From contig JAJZDN010000014.1 in NCBI GenBank assembly GCA_021805985.1, positions 1-64,000 on the forward strand: a stretch of DNA of 64,000 nucleotides, given 5' to 3'. Each line of letters opens with the position of its first letter. Position 1 is the stretch's first letter. The notes beneath the pieces were generated by a model. It saw nothing but the letters and a program-made list of their open reading frames with translations, had not been told where the DNA came from and did not search any database. A program made the translations under genes and the position numbers. This document shows, piece after piece, positions 2,110 through 26,099 of this stretch. Source of the stretch: Planctomycetota bacterium. Lineage in GTDB: Bacteria; Planctomycetota; Phycisphaerae; WQYP01.

Positions 2110-3363
2110 ATGATGACCAATAAAAATCCCCCGTCCGCTGGAATTTTTCTGATTTTCAGCCAAACCTTCGCCCCGGACCCGGCTGCCGTCGGGCAACATA
2201 TCACCGATGCCGCTATCGCCATGGCCAAGCGCGGCCACGCAGTTCGCGTGTACGCCTCAAGCCGCGGGTACGAAGATCCCACCCGCCAGTACCCCTTAAA
2301 AGAAAACATGCAGGGGGTGGACGTTCGACGCCTGCGTTTAAGTTCCTTCGGTAAAAAGAACCTCCTTATTCGCATTATCGGAACCGCCAGCTTTCTTATC
2401 CAATGCTTCTTTATTGGGTTATTTACCCCCAAAGTCAAAGGTATTCTCTTTAGCACGTCACCACCCATGATCGGCTTTGCCGCCGCATGGATTAGTTGGC
2501 TGCGGCATGTGCCCATTGCGTACTGGGCCATGGATCTGAATCCTGATCAGCTTATCATGATGGGAAAAATCAAAGAGCACAGTCTTCGCGCCCGCATGTT
2601 GGAACGCGTGAATCGTTTTATTCTCAGCAGATCGGCCGCCATATTTGTCCTGGACCGATTCATGGCTGACCGCTTGGCCAAACGGGGCGACTTTGCAAAA
2701 AAAATCCACATTGATCCGCCCTGGCCGCATGAACATGTTATTGAACCGGTGCCGCTGCAGAACAATCCTTTTCGCATGGAGCACGGCCTGCAAGGCAAAT
2801 TCGTTATTATGTACAGCGGAAATCACAGCCCTGCCAATCCACTGGATACCGTCCTCCATGCCGCCCTAGCATTAAAAAATGATACCGACCTGCGATTTGT
2901 TTTTGTCGGCGGCGGCTTGGGAAAGCGGCAAATTGAGGCCTGCATTTTAGAGCATCAATTAACCAATGTGCTGTCATTACCCTATCAACCGCTGGAATCC
3001 TTGAAATTTTCACTCTCTGCGGCGGATGTGCATTTGGTGAGTCTCGGAGAAAATATGGTGGGAATAATTCATCCCTGCAAAATCTACGGAGCCATGGCTG
3101 CCGGAAAGCCCATACTTTTTCTGGGTCCCAGCCCCAGCCATATTGCGGATATTTTTCATGAGCATGAAATTGGCTGGCACATTCGACATGGCGATACCGA
3201 CGGCACCGTGAAGGCGATTATGCGCATTCGCAGCACGCCGCAGGCCCAGCTTAGCCGCATGGGCCGCAACGCCCAGCATCTGCTGCGCGAACGGCTAAGT
3301 CAGGAAACCCTCTGCAACCGCTTCTGCGAGCGGCTGGAAAACGCCCTTGCCCTCTACGCTTAG
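2110..3363 (+). CDS. Glycosyltransferase family 4 (WbuB-like)
   Basis: A 417-residue GT-B fold glycosyltransferase. The N-terminal domain begins with GIFLIFSQTFAPDPAAVGQH and a Gly-rich acceptor-side loop; the C-terminal nucleotide-sugar domain includes FVIMYSGNHSPANPLDTVL, FVFVGGGLGKRQIE and an E-x7-type region near GIIHPCKIYGAMAAGKPIL. This layout matches family 4 enzymes of the WbuB/capsule type that use nucleotide sugars to build surface polysaccharide on the cytoplasmic face. No other polysaccharide genes lie beside it, so it is a solitary enzyme here. Two adjacent ATGs (2110, 2113) are possible starts. Donor and acceptor are unknown. Confidence 0.88.
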   Translation: MMTNKNPPSAGIFLIFSQTFAPDPAAVGQHITDAAIAMAKRGHAVRVYASSRGYEDPTRQYPLKENMQGVDVRRLRLSSFGKKNLLIRIIGTASFLIQCFFIGLFTPKVKGILFSTSPPMIGFAAAWISWLRHVPIAYWAMDLNPDQLIMMGKIKEHSLRARMLERVNRFILSRSAAIFVLDRFMADRLAKRGDFAKKIHIDPPWPHEHVIEPVPLQNNPFRMEHGLQGKFVIMYSGNHSPANPLDTVLHAALALKNDTDLRFVFVGGGLGKRQIEACILEHQLTNVLSLPYQPLESLKFSLSAADVHLVSLGENMVGIIHPCKIYGAMAAGKPILFLGPSPSHIADIFHEHEIGWHIRHGDTDGTVKAIMRIRSTPQAQLSRMGRNAQHLLRERLSQETLCNRFCERLENALALYA

Positions 3364-11638: not shown

Positions 11639-13099
11639 ATGGCAGTAAACAATGACCTTCACGCCGCCGAAGTTTCGGAGGCGCTGAATGAAGTGAAATT
11701 CAGCGGCTTTCATCTGCGGGCGATTATCACCGCGGGCATGGGATTTTTTACCTCAGCCTTTGACTTGACCGTCATCGGTACAGCCTTGGCATTGGCCGGG
11801 CCGGAATGGATGAAAGGCTTTCTCGCCGGTGGCGGCAGCAAAGCTGATTTTGCGTGGACCATGGGGTTGGTAGGCTCGGTGTCCCTGGCGGCAACATTTG
11901 TCGGAGCCATTGTATTTGGCATGATTGCCGACAAAATCGGCCGTAAGAGTGTTTACGGTATTGAAGCCATCCTGATGACCGTCGGAGCTATTGGAAGTGC
12001 CTTAGCCGGGGGTCCCATTTCCATGATTGTCTGGCGGACCATTATGGGTTTTGGAATTGGTGGTGATTATCCGTTATCCGCCGTTCTTATGAGTGAATAT
12101 GCTAATCGTGAATCGCGGGGGAAAATGGTGGGCATGGTATTTTCCTGCCAGGCGTTGGGTTTCCTCGCCGGGCCGATTGCGATTTTGACAATGCTGGCCG
12201 CGGGCGTGAGCCACGACCTGACGTGGCGCATCGCCTTGGGTATGGGAGCACTGCCGGCCATGGGCGTCATTATTTTGCGGCGGACGATGCCGGAATCTCC
12301 GCGGTGGCTCGCCCGTGCTAAGGGACAGGCTACAGCGGCGGCGCAGTCTTTACGAGCCTATTCTGAGGGCATCGCCCGGCCCGCTGCCCGCGAAGCCACC
12401 GCCGTAGTACGTGAACCTCTGGCCAAGTACGCCCTGACTCTGCTGGGCACCGCCGGCTGCTGGTTTGTTTTTGACTACGCGTACTATGGCAACACCATCG
12501 GCATGCCAACGATCATTAATTCAGTCGCTCCGCATGCGTCTCTAATGACCACGGTAGCATGGAATGTTCTGATCTTCGGGATATTTGCAGTTCCCGGCTA
12601 TGTATTTGCGTTTATGTTAAGCGATAAACTCGGTCGCAAATTTATTCAGATGATGGGCTTTGCTCTCATGGGGTTAATGTTCCTGGCGCTGGGCCTTATT
12701 CCCGCACTAGCCCAGAACGCAGCCGCGTTCATAACCGTATTCGGGTTAAGCTACTTTTTCGCAGAATTCGGGCCGAATGTCACCACGTTTGTGCTGGCGG
12801 CGGAACTGTACCCCGTAAATCTGCGCACGACCGGCCATGGAATTTCGGCAGGCATCGCCAAGATCGGCGCTTTCCTCGGCGTGCTGTTCCTGAACGGCAT
12901 TCTTGCGAAGCTGGGCTTTGGCGGCGGAATGCTGCTTTCGGCGGGCATGTCCCTGGTGGGCCTCGTGCTGACCGCCGTATGTATCAAAGAACCCGCGGGT
13001 AAATCATTGGAAGAAGCAGGCCAGGAAACCGGATGGGAACCGGAACCTCAGGAAGTTTCCCGCCAAGCCCTGCGCACCCCGGCCGGCGCGTCGGCGTAA
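11639..13099 (+). CDS. MFS phosphate:proton symporter, PHS (Pho84-like) family
   Basis: A 486-residue, 12-helix major facilitator. It carries the PHS-family stretch GFGIGGDYPLSAVLMSEYAN and GKMVGMVF after it, the MFS loop GMIADKIGRKSVYG, and FDLTVIGTAL in helix 1 (matching the F-D-x-x-x-I-G motif of fungal and bacterial Pho84 relatives). PHS proteins import phosphate with protons across the inner membrane. An AGGAG site precedes the ATG. It sits beside a nonsense-mutated pstB and may have taken over phosphate uptake. A metabolite:H+ symporter with another anion cannot be excluded from sequence alone. An intrinsic terminator follows. Confidence 0.85.
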   Translation: MAVNNDLHAAEVSEALNEVKFSGFHLRAIITAGMGFFTSAFDLTVIGTALALAGPEWMKGFLAGGGSKADFAWTMGLVGSVSLAATFVGAIVFGMIADKIGRKSVYGIEAILMTVGAIGSALAGGPISMIVWRTIMGFGIGGDYPLSAVLMSEYANRESRGKMVGMVFSCQALGFLAGPIAILTMLAAGVSHDLTWRIALGMGALPAMGVIILRRTMPESPRWLARAKGQATAAAQSLRAYSEGIARPAAREATAVVREPLAKYALTLLGTAGCWFVFDYAYYGNTIGMPTIINSVAPHASLMTTVAWNVLIFGIFAVPGYVFAFMLSDKLGRKFIQMMGFALMGLMFLALGLIPALAQNAAAFITVFGLSYFFAEFGPNVTTFVLAAELYPVNLRTTGHGISAGIAKIGAFLGVLFLNGILAKLGFGGGMLLSAGMSLVGLVLTAVCIKEPAGKSLEEAGQETGWEPEPQEVSRQALRTPAGASA

Positions 13100-13231: not shown

Positions 13232-13483
13232 TCACAGCTTGCGCAGGGATCGTCGCCTGACGCCCGCGACAAGGGCCAAGCCTGCCGCGCCCGAGCCAAG
13301 CAAGACCAATGATGAAGGAATGGGAGCCAGCGATGGATCATAACCAATGGCTTGGAGTGCGATGCCTTCCGGTAGAACATGAAACGGGGACGTATCTAGG
13401 TTTTGGTTTTTGGCGTGATCGATCGGCCCGGCGGAGTTGGCGGTTGGCTGAAGGGCGGAGGACACTCGCCGGGGTAGGAGCAA
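13232..13483 (-). pseudogene. C-terminal stub of a PEP-CTERM protein
   Basis: The frame ends IPSSLVLLGSGAAGLALVAG followed by VRRRSLRKL: a sorting motif close to Pro-Glu-Pro (here PIPSS), one transmembrane helix and a basic tail, the tripartite PEP-CTERM anchor used for exosortase-dependent surface proteins. The 50 residues before it contain no signal peptide and no recognised domain. Full proteins of this class have an N-terminal signal, so this is most likely what is left of a deleted gene. Confidence 0.6.
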
Positions 13484-13500: not shown

Positions 13501-14076
13501 TCAAAGCATTCGCACTCGCTCGGCAAAGGCAGCGAAACCTTCCGGGCAGCGGCGTGCGAGGTGGGAAATATCCAGTTCAGCCGCGATCCGGGCGTACATT
13601 TCCGCACCGCCCCAGTGCAGACCCAACTCCGCCAGCAATTTTCCCATGTGCTCTTTGGGGTGGGCTAACTTTTCCGGGTCGGATTGTTTGGGAACAGTTA
13701 CGGCTAAAACCTTACTGATGGCTTGCTCATCGGCTAACATCCACGCGTCAAAAGCTTCAACGGGAACGCCCAATGCCCGGGGGATGAGGCATTGCGCCGT
13801 GTGATTCTGGGCATCCGCGATTTCAGTACATCGCGTTGGCACGCCGTCGCGATCCACCAGTAATATAATGGCATCGTAGCCGCGCTTCCTGGCCTCCAGC
13901 ATCCAGCGAACCGCTTTTTTGAAGTACGCCTTCCCTTTTCCGGGGTGCACGTGGATTTTGGAATTTGCTAACCGGTCGAACGTCAGATCAGTTAAATCAG
14001 GCCTTACCTGCTGAATTAGTGCACGGGCCGCTCCGTCGGACTCGTGCTTACCCTCAACAACCACCAGCACGCGCAT
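13501..14076 (-). CDS. DUF4276 Toprim-like protein of an ATPase/Toprim pair
   Basis: A 191-residue protein starting MRVLVVVEGKHESDGAARAL, with a conserved acidic VEGKHE and a later AIILLVDRDG that resemble the Glu and Asp-x-Asp of Toprim nuclease folds. A further VPVEAFDAWMLADE motif is typical of DUF4276. Its ATG overlaps the stop of the upstream ATPase gene (TAATG), so both are translated together. Pairs of an OLD-like or COG4637-like ATPase with a Toprim protein are recurrent in phage-defence islands (compare PARIS, AbiL), but this pair's activity is inferred only. Confidence 0.72.
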   Translation of the reverse strand: MRVLVVVEGKHESDGAARALIQQVRPDLTDLTFDRLANSKIHVHPGKGKAYFKKAVRWMLEARKRGYDAIILLVDRDGVPTRCTEIADAQNHTAQCLIPRALGVPVEAFDAWMLADEQAISKVLAVTVPKQSDPEKLAHPKEHMGKLLAELGLHWGGAEMYARIAAELDISHLARRCPEGFAAFAERVRML

Positions 14077-15248
14077 TATTTCTTCCCGTCCGTAACTGTT
14101 TTGGCTAGCGCCTCATCACCTTCCGCCGTCCAGATTTCACCGAGGCTGAAGACGTCGAGTTGTTTTTTCACATCAGGCGACGATCCCAGCGGATGCACCG
14201 AGACGCTGCCGTCTGGCTCCTTGCGGCACAACGTCACTTCTTCCGGTTTGAAAAAATCGAGCAGGTACGGCGAATGCGTGGTCATGATAATCTGGGTGCG
14301 TTTCTGCTTCTCGATTAATTGCCGTAAGATGTTAAGAACCTCTTCAAGACGCTTAGGATGAATTCCGTTTTCCGGTTCCTCAACCAGAATGACCCGCGGC
14401 GGATCGGGCAAATGCAAAAGTGTTGTATAAGCCAGGACCAGCAGCGAGCCATCGGAAGCTTGTGCGGCCGGAATACTGCGGCCGTTTCCCAGTTGAAAGT
14501 AAATGCCTTTTCCACTGGCGTTTGCAGCGTGCGGCAAGTCTTCCGCCACTTGGGGTTGCGGCCACTGGTAAGCGTGCACGGAACGCAACTGGATAGCTTT
14601 CATTTCCGGGAAAATCTCGCAAAACCGTGATTCCAGAGCGCGGAACCGATCGCGGTCCAAGCCAAGAACGTCATCCAAGCATTGCGCCAAACCGAAACCG
14701 GAACTGTCCATGGAAAGCCGATGCGCAGCGTCGAGTACAACGGGCAATTTAAGCAACCGTGGATTCCAGCGGAACAGCGCAACGCCGCTAAGTGCGTTGT
14801 GCAACGTTTTCGCCAGTTGGCCGTCCATGGTCGGGTGGCTGACGAGGTGAGCGGAATACAGGCTCGTGCGACTAGGATTATCCAGCGGAAAGGAAAGTGG
14901 CTCCCGATCCTTTTGAGCCCATACCTCATTGCCAAGAAATGGGCCGCCTGCCTGTGGCGGCATGACGCACCCAATGTGGTATTCGCCATCTATGGCATCA
15001 TCCACGATTTCAGCCCCGAACGAGGCGGTGTCATTGCCAAGGGTGTCCCAAAGCAAATTCGACGGGTTGGAAGTCGCGGGGAAGACCTGATTGAGCGGAT
15101 AATCCGCGCTTTTGCACAGCGCCGCGATTGCCTCAAGAATACTGGTTTTCCCGCTATCGTTGGGGCCTATTAGTACGTGAATTGGCGCGAGCGGCAATGT
15201 CACGTCCCGCAGGGCTTTGTAATTTTTCACGTGAAATTGGGTGATCAT
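14076..15248 (-). CDS. AAA (SMC/OLD-like, AAA_21) ATPase of an ATPase/Toprim pair
   Basis: A 390-residue ABC-class ATPase starting MITQFHVKNYKALRDVTLPL. Walker A is GPNDSGKTS, a signature-like region is LGNGRSIPAAQASDGSLLVL, Walker B is RVILVEEPENGIHP, and the switch His is in IIMTTHSPYLLDFF. The coiled insertion is short, as in COG4637/AAA_21 proteins. It is soluble and likely dimerises to gate its partner, the DUF4276 protein encoded immediately downstream and overlapping by one base. The cassette is isolated between a PEP-CTERM stub and an intergenic gap, as expected of a transferred module. Confidence 0.8.
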   Translation of the reverse strand: MITQFHVKNYKALRDVTLPLAPIHVLIGPNDSGKTSILEAIAALCKSADYPLNQVFPATSNPSNLLWDTLGNDTASFGAEIVDDAIDGEYHIGCVMPPQAGGPFLGNEVWAQKDREPLSFPLDNPSRTSLYSAHLVSHPTMDGQLAKTLHNALSGVALFRWNPRLLKLPVVLDAAHRLSMDSSGFGLAQCLDDVLGLDRDRFRALESRFCEIFPEMKAIQLRSVHAYQWPQPQVAEDLPHAANASGKGIYFQLGNGRSIPAAQASDGSLLVLAYTTLLHLPDPPRVILVEEPENGIHPKRLEEVLNILRQLIEKQKRTQIIMTTHSPYLLDFFKPEEVTLCRKEPDGSVSVHPLGSSPDVKKQLDVFSLGEIWTAEGDEALAKTVTDGKK

Positions 15249-15620
15249 TATCCAAGCGCCTTTAGTTTCCCAGCCGCTGTTGCCGCAGTGCGTATATTAC
15301 TAATGTTACCGCACCAACCCGCTGTTGCAACCATACGAAAACGGCTGATCAGCAGGCCAAACAATATAGCCACATATTCAAATACTCTGGCAGATAACAT
15401 TCGGAGTTACAATATTGGTGCTTTGCGCCAGTGCTGATAGGCGTGGCTGAAAAGGCTTACTGCGTTTTACCACCGGCAGAGCCGGCGGCTGTGTGAAGCT
15501 TCGGCTGCCCCTGTAACCTGTCCGCCGTAACCTGTAACCTCCGCGCCCCCGGCGACTGAATGGGAATTAATTGTTATGATACGGCTTGAATTTTGGGTTT
15601 AAGGGTTTGGGCGGTTTCTT
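15249..15620. other. Intergenic region upstream of serS
   Basis: About 370 bp with no supported gene. It holds the divergent promoters of the ATPase/Toprim pair and serS, and one CCGGC-type palindromic repeat at 15464-15500. No T-box antiterminator was recognised ahead of serS. Confidence 0.4.
15464..15500 (+). repeat. REP-like repeat, CCGGC family
   Basis: GCGTTTTACCACCGG followed by CAGAGCCGGCGGCTGTGTGA. The inverted core CCACCGGC/GCCGGCGG recurs at 20201, 34291, 38184 and 47903. Confidence 0.7.
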
Positions 15621-16958
15621 ATGCTGGACATGCGGTTTATCCGGGAAAATCCCGGGGTGGTGCGCGACGGTGCTGCGGCGAAAAATATTTCCGTTGATCT
15701 CGACGGGCTGCTGGAACTGGATGCACGGTCACGCGCGCTACAGCAGCGGCTGCAGGAATTGGCCACGCAACAAAATCGAATTACCAAAGAAATTGGTCCG
15801 TTGATGGGGCGGATTAAAGCGGAGAAAGATCTGGCCAAACGGGCGGAACTGGAAAAGCAGGCAACGGAGTTGCGGCAGCGCCCTACGGAAATCAAGCAGG
15901 AATCGCTGGAGCTTCAGGAACAGATTAAAGCTCTGCAACCGGAAATTGACGCGCGGTTGCTGACCATTCCGCTACCCCCGGACAGTGACGTTCCGCGGGG
16001 AAAATCTTCCGAAGACAACGTGGAATTGCGAACATGGGGCAAGGTGCCAAGCTTTAACTTTCCGGTGCGCAGCCATATAGAACTGGGGGAGAAGCTGGAG
16101 TTGTTTGATGTGCCGCGGGGCGTGCGGCTGGCGGGATCACGGAGTTATTTTCTTACCGGGGCGGGTGCCTTGCTGCATCAGGCGGTGCTGCGGCTGGCCA
16201 TGGACATGATGGTATTTGAAAAAGGCTTTACGCCCATGACCGTTCCGGTGCTGGTGCGTGAGGCGGCCATGCGGGGAACGGGGTTTTTCCCGGCCGGGCG
16301 GGAGCAGGCGTATCGCGTAGGGGAAATCAATGAAACCGGTGAAGATGAGCGTTTTTTAACGGGGACCGGTGAAGTGGGCCTGACGGCGTTTTATCTCGAT
16401 GAGATTCTGGATGAGGCACAGTTGCCGCGAAAGCTGGTTACGCAAAGCACCTGCTTTCGGCGTGAGGCGGGGACGTATGGCAAGGATACCTCGGGCCTGT
16501 ACCGCATTCATCAGTTTGATAAAGTTGAGCAGGTTATTATCTGCAAAAATGACCGCGAGGAATCCATCCGCTGGCATAAAGAAATTCTGGCCAACAGTGA
16601 GCAGTTGCTGCAACGCCTGAATTTGCCATACCGGGTGATGCAATGCTGCACGGGTGATCTTGGCCCGAAGAACGCCTCCATGATTGATATTGAAACCTGG
16701 ATGCCCTCACGCAACGCCTACGGTGAAACGCATAGCGCCAGTCGGCTATATGATTTTCAGGCCCGGCGATGCGAACTACGTTATCGTGATGCGCAGGGAA
16801 AGGTGCAGTACTGCCATACCTTGAACAACACGGTCGCGGCCAGCCCGCGGATATTGATTCCGATTCTGGAGCTGTATCAAACGGCGGATGGTGCGGTTCG
16901 CGTGCCCGAAGCGCTGCGGCCTTATATGAACGGCATGGAGATTATTACAAAGCAATAA
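15621..16958 (+). CDS. serS: Seryl-tRNA synthetase
   Basis: A 445-residue class II aminoacyl-tRNA synthetase that charges tRNA-Ser. Residues 1-110 form the long antiparallel coiled coil (LDMRFIRENPGVVRDG, then heptads to EIDARLLTIPLPPD). The catalytic core has motif 2 in STCFRREAGTYGKDTSGLYR and a motif 3 helix HTLNNTVAASPRILIPILE with the ATP-binding Arg; the common family version is LNGSGLA, so this one is somewhat diverged. Length is normal. The solute-binding gene begins 9 bp after its stop, so serS may head the transporter operon. Confidence 0.95.
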   Translation: MLDMRFIRENPGVVRDGAAAKNISVDLDGLLELDARSRALQQRLQELATQQNRITKEIGPLMGRIKAEKDLAKRAELEKQATELRQRPTEIKQESLELQEQIKALQPEIDARLLTIPLPPDSDVPRGKSSEDNVELRTWGKVPSFNFPVRSHIELGEKLELFDVPRGVRLAGSRSYFLTGAGALLHQAVLRLAMDMMVFEKGFTPMTVPVLVREAAMRGTGFFPAGREQAYRVGEINETGEDERFLTGTGEVGLTAFYLDEILDEAQLPRKLVTQSTCFRREAGTYGKDTSGLYRIHQFDKVEQVIICKNDREESIRWHKEILANSEQLLQRLNLPYRVMQCCTGDLGPKNASMIDIETWMPSRNAYGETHSASRLYDFQARRCELRYRDAQGKVQYCHTLNNTVAASPRILIPILELYQTADGAVRVPEALRPYMNGMEIITKQ

Positions 16959-24812: not shown

Positions 24813-26099
24813 ATGGCCAACCCCAATAACGTCGCCAGTAAAACCGAGACCATGCTGGGCAAATTCATTGTTGAACAGGGGTTTTGCACGCAGGAAGAGC
24901 TCGGTGATTGCCGGTCACTGCAGGCGGAACTCGAGCGGCAGGAGAGCCATCGCTCATTAACCGATATTCTTGTAGCCAACGGCTATGTCACGCAAACGCA
25001 ATTGGCGCGCGTTAAGGCGGCGGTAGAAGAGCAAAAAACTTTTCAGCAGATTCCTGGCTACCAGATTATGTCTAAACTGGGTGCCGGCGCGATGGCCACG
25101 GTGTTTAAAGCTCGGCAGCTTTCCTTAGACCGAATTGTCGCAATTAAAGTTCTGCCCAAGCGCATGAGCGAAAATAAAGAATTCGTAGACCGCTTCTACA
25201 TGGAAGGTAAAGCGGCAGCTAAATTAAACCACCCCAATATCGTGGCCGCCTATGATGTAGGCGAAGCGGGCGGATACCACTATTTTGTCATGGAATATGT
25301 GGCAGGAAAAACGGTTTATGATCATTTGATAGACAGTGGAAAACCCTACCCGGAAAAGCAGGCCCTGGACATTATCATTCAAGTGTGTCGAGCACTGGTT
25401 CACGCCCATCTTAACGGCCTGATTCACCGGGATGTTAAACCAAAAAATATCATGATGACGCCGGAAGGAACTGCCAAGCTGGCTGATATGGGTTTAGCGC
25501 GGGAAGCCGATGACAAAGTCGCCGCCGCCGCTGAAGCGGGTAAAGCGTATGGCACACCTTATTACATTTCCCCCGAACAGATTCGCGGCCAGCTGAACAT
25601 TGACTTTCGGGCGGACATTTATTCCCTGGGTGCCACGATGTACCACATGGTGACCGGTCGCGTACCATTTGAAGCGCCCTCCCCCGCGGCAGTGATGCAC
25701 AAGCATTTGAAAGAGGATCTGGTACCACCGGATCACGTCAATACCAACCTGAGTGCGGGTATATCGGAAATTATAGAAGTGGCCATGGCCAAAGACCCGG
25801 CCAAGCGATATTCCTCCACGTCGGATATGCTTTCCGACTTGGAATCTGTGGCGCATGGCGATCCACCCAAGTTGGCGCGGCGCGCTTATGATTTGACCAC
25901 CTTGGCCAAAATTGAAAAAGCCGCCGCCGATTCCAATCCATCGGATCAGGTAGACTTGGTAGAAGCGGACGAAGAACCCACCATTGATCTGGGTTCTCGC
26001 ACGCTGATTCAAAAATTTAAGGATCCGCTGGTATTGCTGCTGCTGGGCTGTCTGATCTTTGCCATTGTGATTATTGTGCTGCTGGAACTCAAGGCGTAG
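24813..26099 (+). CDS. Hanks-type serine/threonine protein kinase with C-terminal membrane anchor
   Basis: A 428-residue protein. Residues 1-80 (GKFIVEQGFCTQEELGDC ... ANGYVTQTQLARV) form two short helical repeats like the N-terminal region of type II secretion ATPases. The kinase domain spans about residues 84-350: P-loop LGAGAMATVFKA, ATP Lys in VAIKVLPKR, catalytic loop HRDVKPKN, metal loop DMGLA (Met in place of the usual Phe of DFG), GTPYYISPEQ. A single helix LLLLGCLIFAIVIIVLLEL ends the protein, so the kinase faces the cytoplasm. There is no extracellular sensor. Phosphorylation targets are unknown. Confidence 0.93.
   Translation: MANPNNVASKTETMLGKFIVEQGFCTQEELGDCRSLQAELERQESHRSLTDILVANGYVTQTQLARVKAAVEEQKTFQQIPGYQIMSKLGAGAMATVFKARQLSLDRIVAIKVLPKRMSENKEFVDRFYMEGKAAAKLNHPNIVAAYDVGEAGGYHYFVMEYVAGKTVYDHLIDSGKPYPEKQALDIIIQVCRALVHAHLNGLIHRDVKPKNIMMTPEGTAKLADMGLAREADDKVAAAAEAGKAYGTPYYISPEQIRGQLNIDFRADIYSLGATMYHMVTGRVPFEAPSPAAVMHKHLKEDLVPPDHVNTNLSAGISEIIEVAMAKDPAKRYSSTSDMLSDLESVAHGDPPKLARRAYDLTTLAKIEKAAADSNPSDQVDLVEADEEPTIDLGSRTLIQKFKDPLVLLLLGCLIFAIVIIVLLELKA

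Follow-up and report, generated by a model that had tools for sequence, protein, structure and literature searches.

A divergent HEC-01-type ATPase-DUF4276 gene pair beside serS in a planctomycete: a candidate anti-parasite module

What is the role of two overlapping genes, one for an OLD-like ATPase and one for a DUF4276 protein, that lie between unrelated neighbours in an uncultured planctomycete? An earlier note, made from the sequence alone, had proposed them as a candidate defence module. We have followed this up in the window (the whole 64,000-nt stretch of DNA analysed) and in related genomes.

The gene pair and its relatives

The two ORFs occupy exactly positions 13501-15248 on the minus strand, as had been claimed, with the ATPase gene first and the DUF4276 gene second (Table 1). 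The overlap described between them is also there, read as TAATG at 14078-14074; relatives mostly have this or an ATGA geometry (1- or 4-nt overlap). The nearest neighbours are an MFS transporter gene (11639-13099, plus strand) and serS, both on the opposite strand, and as an operon the pair does stand alone. Scanning the cassette region for promoters, terminators and Rfam families gave nothing above chance or threshold. Beside the cassette is an 83-aa ORF (13232-13483, minus strand) with a PEP-CTERM-like tail (PSSLVLLGSGAAGLALVAGVRRRSLRKL); it matches no family and could be what is left of a gene.

Table 1. Coordinates of the gene pair, its motifs and the adjoining site (window positions).
Feature	Position	Strand	Remarks
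ATPase gene	14076..15248	-	390 aa; OLD/RecF-type ABC ATPase (AAA_21/AAA_15), putative sensor and regulator
Walker A, GPNDSGKT (ATPase residues 28-35)	15144..15167	-	S32 at least 90%, other positions invariant, 29 homologues
Fast-evolving ATPase region (residues 70-158)	14775..15041	-	dN/dS 0.76 vs 0.12 elsewhere; proposed trigger-contact surface
ABC signature-like SDG (ATPase residues 265-267)	14448..14456	-	G267 invariant; S265 and D266 at least 90%; 29 homologues
Walker B and D-loop, LVEEPENG (ATPase residues 288-295)	14364..14387	-	catalytic Glu; 29 homologues
H-loop, THSP (ATPase residues 324-327)	14268..14279	-	switch His325; 29 homologues
GEIW motif, ATPase C-terminal (residues 370-373)	14130..14141	-	invariant, 29 homologues
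TAATG stop-start overlap	14074..14078	-	ATPase stop/DUF4276 ATG; translational coupling
DUF4276 gene	13501..14076	-	191 aa; Toprim-like putative nuclease effector
Toprim motif 1, EGKHE (DUF4276 residues 8-12)	14041..14055	-	E12 invariant, E8 nearly so, 34 homologues
Toprim DxD (DUF4276 Asp75, Asp77)	13846..13854	-	invariant; in register with OLD DxD
FDAW motif (DUF4276 residues 109-112)	13741..13752	-	family hallmark
Variable spacer, cassette to serS (serS-5' exchange site)	15249..15550	.	from comparison with sister genomes
serS	15621..16958	+	conserved anchor of exchange site; outside module

A scan of genome contigs found 36 loci with relatives, mainly in Planctomycetota and nearly all from MAGs; the other labels are Hydrogenedentota (two), Chthoniobacterales, Poribacteria, Sumerlaeota, and Binatia. 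The ATPase gene is directly upstream of the DUF4276 gene in nearly all of them. Exceptions are contig ends, copies whose frame is disrupted (G003 and G027; in L066 it is the ATPase), and a few where a small gap separates the genes or the start is in doubt; in addition, G009 (L048) has kept the ATPase and has no DUF4276 gene, and G011 (L020) has an orphan DUF4276 remnant, truncated at the N-terminus. Because the relatives are nearly all MAGs, the frameshifts may be assembly errors. The pairing is not due to chance, since the unit is conserved at most of the 36 other loci and each gene has a dN/dS near 0.25 against G006. Conserved synteny with housekeeping genes, which would have spoken against a defence role, was looked for over the related loci and none is conserved: flanking genes are common only to near relatives, bar a few weak matches, and the pair is therefore not a housekeeping operon.

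Domain assignments and the Toprim question

The first protein matches Pfam AAA_21 (E 2e-32) and AAA_15. Its AF2 model (pLDDT 89) has the T. scotoductus OLD nuclease (6p74) as top PDB fold, at E 3e-16; the nearest folds are OLD, PtuA, and Rad50. The ABC motif set is complete, as the earlier note had it, and is conserved across 29 homologues, with the Walker A, Walker B, signature, and H-loop elements of the OLD family all present. Over the Walker B/D-loop stretch, L288, E291, P292, E293, and N294 are invariant in these homologues and E290 and G295 at least 90% conserved; in the H-loop, H325, S326, and P327 are invariant and T324 is at least 90% conserved. The GEIW end is a possible contact with the Toprim partner.

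The second protein is assigned to DUF4276 by Pfam (E 4e-9, above the gathering score). Its AF2 model (pLDDT 88) has an alternating beta-alpha order that fits a Toprim domain. The ExxxE and DxD elements of OLD-family Toprims are there: E8-x-x-x-E12 follows the first beta strand, and D75-x-D77 a strand further on. A Foldseek search with this model against PDB and BFVD (viral models) gave no significant fold match. The fold match was replaced by a profile comparison with decoys, for which OLD-like Toprim domains were collected from related genomes. In hhalign, the DUF4276 family aligned with these at probabilities of 93 (alignment A1) and 76 (A3), with decoys below 1; the profile scores were 50.5 and 39.6, while 120 column-shuffled decoys all fell below 18 and a reversed alignment also scored far lower. 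The alignment puts E8/E12 and D75/D77 in register with the OLD Toprims, EGKHE aligning with their VEGxxE.

The DUF4276 protein is thus likely to be homologous to Toprim, as had been suggested, and nuclease activity is predicted on the basis of this homology. It could instead have a Toprim-like shell but no nuclease function, and bind nucleotides or DNA as a non-catalytic partner. The empty structure search would suit such a protein, as would the replacement of the motif-1 Glu8 by Asp at three loci (L084, L086, and L088). Against this, the acidic residues E12, D75, D77, and D116 are invariant among the homologues, so that the loss of Toprim acidic residues that might have been feared is not seen, and this conservation, together with the profile match to OLD Toprims, makes the non-catalytic reading improbable.

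Relation to known defence systems

A PADLOC search, also proposed earlier, matched both genes to HEC-01 models. For the ATPase, HEC-01A (E 5e-40) is the best of 153 PADLOC families; the DUF4276 gene matches 11 HEC-01B models, the best at 5e-9 and covering about half of the model. (Among the other window ORFs, PD-T4-6 matches probably come from a Ser/Thr protein kinase gene at 24813-26099, plus strand, an ordinary kinase by Pfam.) HEC-01, with a HEC-01A ATPase and a HEC-01B DUF4276 protein, has the same two-gene organisation as the window pair, which differs in being divergent, as the partial HEC-01B match indicates, and in standing alone between the MFS transporter gene and serS with no Hma genes beside it. 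HEC-01 is a Hma-embedded candidate, embedding being, from the name, its route of discovery and probably a property that not every member need have. HECs are candidates obtained through guilt-by-embedding, and activity has been reported for several, including HEC-06 (PMC12988326). No experiment on HEC-01 or any member of it was found in the literature searched, in which subscription and bioRxiv coverage was thin; one may exist. Judged by these matches, the window pair is a new, divergent HEC-01-type member, of a combination already in PADLOC as a defence candidate. What it adds to that combination is a fast-changing ATPase region and an exchange site at the 5' side of serS, both described below.

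Several other systems combine related parts. PARIS (AriA and AriB; OLD class 4) likewise has separate genes for an OLD-type ATPase and a Toprim protein. AriA is reported to hold AriB until a phage protein is sensed, after which AriB, a two-metal Toprim nuclease inactivated by E26A, cuts tRNA (PMC12409363). AriA models match the window ATPase at 3e-32, ranking below HEC-01A and themselves resembling general AAA_21 models. Neither Pfam nor PADLOC gave an AriB/DUF4435 match to the DUF4276 protein at E<=1, and hhalign against DUF4435, a weak comparison with three sequences of which one is doubtful, gave a probability below 1; by its partner gene the pair is not PARIS. AbiL (AbiLi and AbiLii) is similar in this respect: the ATPase matches AbiLi (8e-22), the partner has no AbiLii match in PADLOC at E<=1, and by partner gene the pair is not AbiL either. 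The parallel that the earlier note drew with PARIS and AbiL therefore holds for the architecture and fails for the identity of the partner. In OLD class 1 nucleases and Gabija GajA, the ATPase and Toprim are fused, whereas the window domains are in separate genes; class 1 nevertheless provides the best fold for the ATPase (6p74) and Toprim motifs in register with DUF4276. No GajB-like helicase gene lies beside the window pair. TOPRIM-linked OLD-ABC conflict systems form a wider class that is already known (PMC12839542; PMC10568477).

Turnover at serS, rates of change and proposed function

The distribution of the pair is patchy: in a sample across the phylum, DUF4276 of the cassette family was found in 8 of 293 other genomes (E<=1e-10). 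Within the genus it has two sites, adjoining serS in G000, G003, and G006, and thuA in G002 and G004, with a fragment at the latter site in G005 at a contig end. Sequence common to all sister genomes resumes at about 15511-15550, on the serS-5' side of the spacer, and what lies at this site differs from genome to genome. G007 (L037:1972-3227) has a 99-bp cassette remnant (3129-3227) that spans the ATPase-DUF4276 junction and is joined directly to serS-5' sequence; this is a deletion scar of the pair, and a PIN-domain toxin gene lies beside it. G004 (L039:868-2257) has a type VI retron-like RT and an HTH gene (RT_VI 1e-34, HTH_VI 1e-16); G002 has a DUF1828/PDC-M24B-like gene and a TIGR04255 gene, in an insert of about 4.15 kb (L038:1192-5530) flanked by a 185-bp direct repeat (92%), within which lies the 5' end of serS; and G001 has what appear by eye to be metabolic genes. 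In this small sample, serS-5' looks like an exchange site for defence-type genes. Among immediate neighbours at the 36 loci, defence-gene enrichment relative to window ORFs was not clear. No relative was found in IMG/VR, and on this search carriage by phages was rejected.

Between the window and G006, of the same genus, dS is 0.35-0.39 for the cassette genes and 0.39 for serS; because these are equal, the pair has been inherited in place since the two lineages split. Amino-acid change is another matter, with dN/dS (simple pairwise counts, Nei-Gojobori style) of 0.25-0.26 for the cassette genes, 0.03 for serS, and 0.05-0.17 for the other neighbours. Within the ATPase it is concentrated in residues 70-158 (0.76, as against 0.12 in the remainder; Fisher 8e-7). 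These limits were picked after viewing the window-G006 pair, and two independent pairs repeat the concentration: G018-G027 gave 0.64 in this region vs 0.16 (4e-5), and G002-G004 gave 0.31 vs 0.11 (2e-4). Relaxed constraint is a possible alternative cause, since dN/dS in the region stays below 1 overall. A fast stretch beside a frozen catalytic core is nonetheless the pattern to be expected of a sensor engaged in an arms race, and this part of the ATPase would most likely mark where an invader is recognised.

A second copy of the pair is present in the G000 MAG (L013, on G000:C78), where it lies at the end of a contig next to an AraC-type regulator gene, and could be a paralogue or MAG contamination. 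It is 97% identical to the window copy at the ATPase end and 76% in DUF4276. Recombination between the two was considered and dismissed, since the two parts have much the same dS (0.45 and 0.53) and the difference therefore lies in constraint.

We propose, with a probability of roughly 0.7, that the pair is a two-gene anti-parasite module, most likely anti-phage, with the ATPase as sensor and regulator and the DUF4276 protein as a Toprim nuclease. The OLD-type ABC ATPase would sense infection, and would hold or license the co-translated DUF4276 protein, a Toprim-type metal-dependent nuclease. A foreign trigger would contact the rapidly changing face of the ATPase, altering its ATP-dependent state, and the nuclease would then be set to work; its substrate would probably be nucleic acid of the host or the phage, and the outcome abortive. 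The division of labour, sensing by one protein and nucleic-acid cleavage by the other, is somewhat less assured, being proposed because of the analogy with PARIS and TOPRIM-linked OLD-ABC systems. A defence or other anti-parasite role, taken broadly, is highly probable. A role in conflict gains evidence from the patchiness, the two sites within the genus, the other defence-type genes at serS-5', and the fast amino-acid change, and to that extent the original suggestion of a defence module is supported; phage defence itself, like complex formation, trigger sensing, nuclease activity, its target, and the abortive outcome, is what we infer. On the other side stand the IMG/VR search without a relative, the fold search without a significant match for DUF4276, the unclear enrichment of defence genes among the neighbours, and relaxed constraint as a possible cause of the fast change.

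The pair might alternatively serve its own maintenance, as a toxin-antitoxin or addiction-like unit in which the ATPase restrains a DUF4276 toxin with no dedicated phage sensing. Two coupled genes at two alternative sites would be in keeping with this, and DUF4276 is broken or absent beside an intact ATPase in G003, G027, and G009, as one would expect of an effector that is costly when unrestrained. However, rapid change concentrated in one ATPase region beside a frozen catalytic core better fits a conflict sensor, and the pair is rare on plasmids: among 72,556 records there are 9 matches to the ATPase, none reaching 60% identity; we consider this explanation unlikely. Least probable is a lineage-specific role in DNA repair, with the two proteins as counterparts of RecF (ABC ATPase) and RecR (Toprim). 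The RecF/SMC-type ATPase with its Rad50-like fold and the Toprim-like partner could be cited for it, but it is at odds with the patchy distribution, the recurrent loss, and a dN/dS about eight times that of the adjacent serS.

Returning to the anti-parasite module, a more specific version of it can be put forward tentatively. In a planctomycete-centred ATPase-DUF4276 clade, the fast-evolving residues 70-158 may serve as a variable receptor that recognises phage triggers. Systems of this clade would trade places with retrons and PIN toxins at a serS-5' defence hotspot, and the clade may constitute a distinct class of split OLD systems beside PARIS.

Among the split OLD/Toprim systems in the literature examined, only PARIS has a worked-out mechanism. 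The present pair yields a prediction of where in such a system the trigger would be sensed, in ATPase residues 70-158, and the profile comparison links the DUF4276 family with Toprim nucleases of the OLD type. In uncultured planctomycetes, more defence genes could be sought at the serS-5' site.
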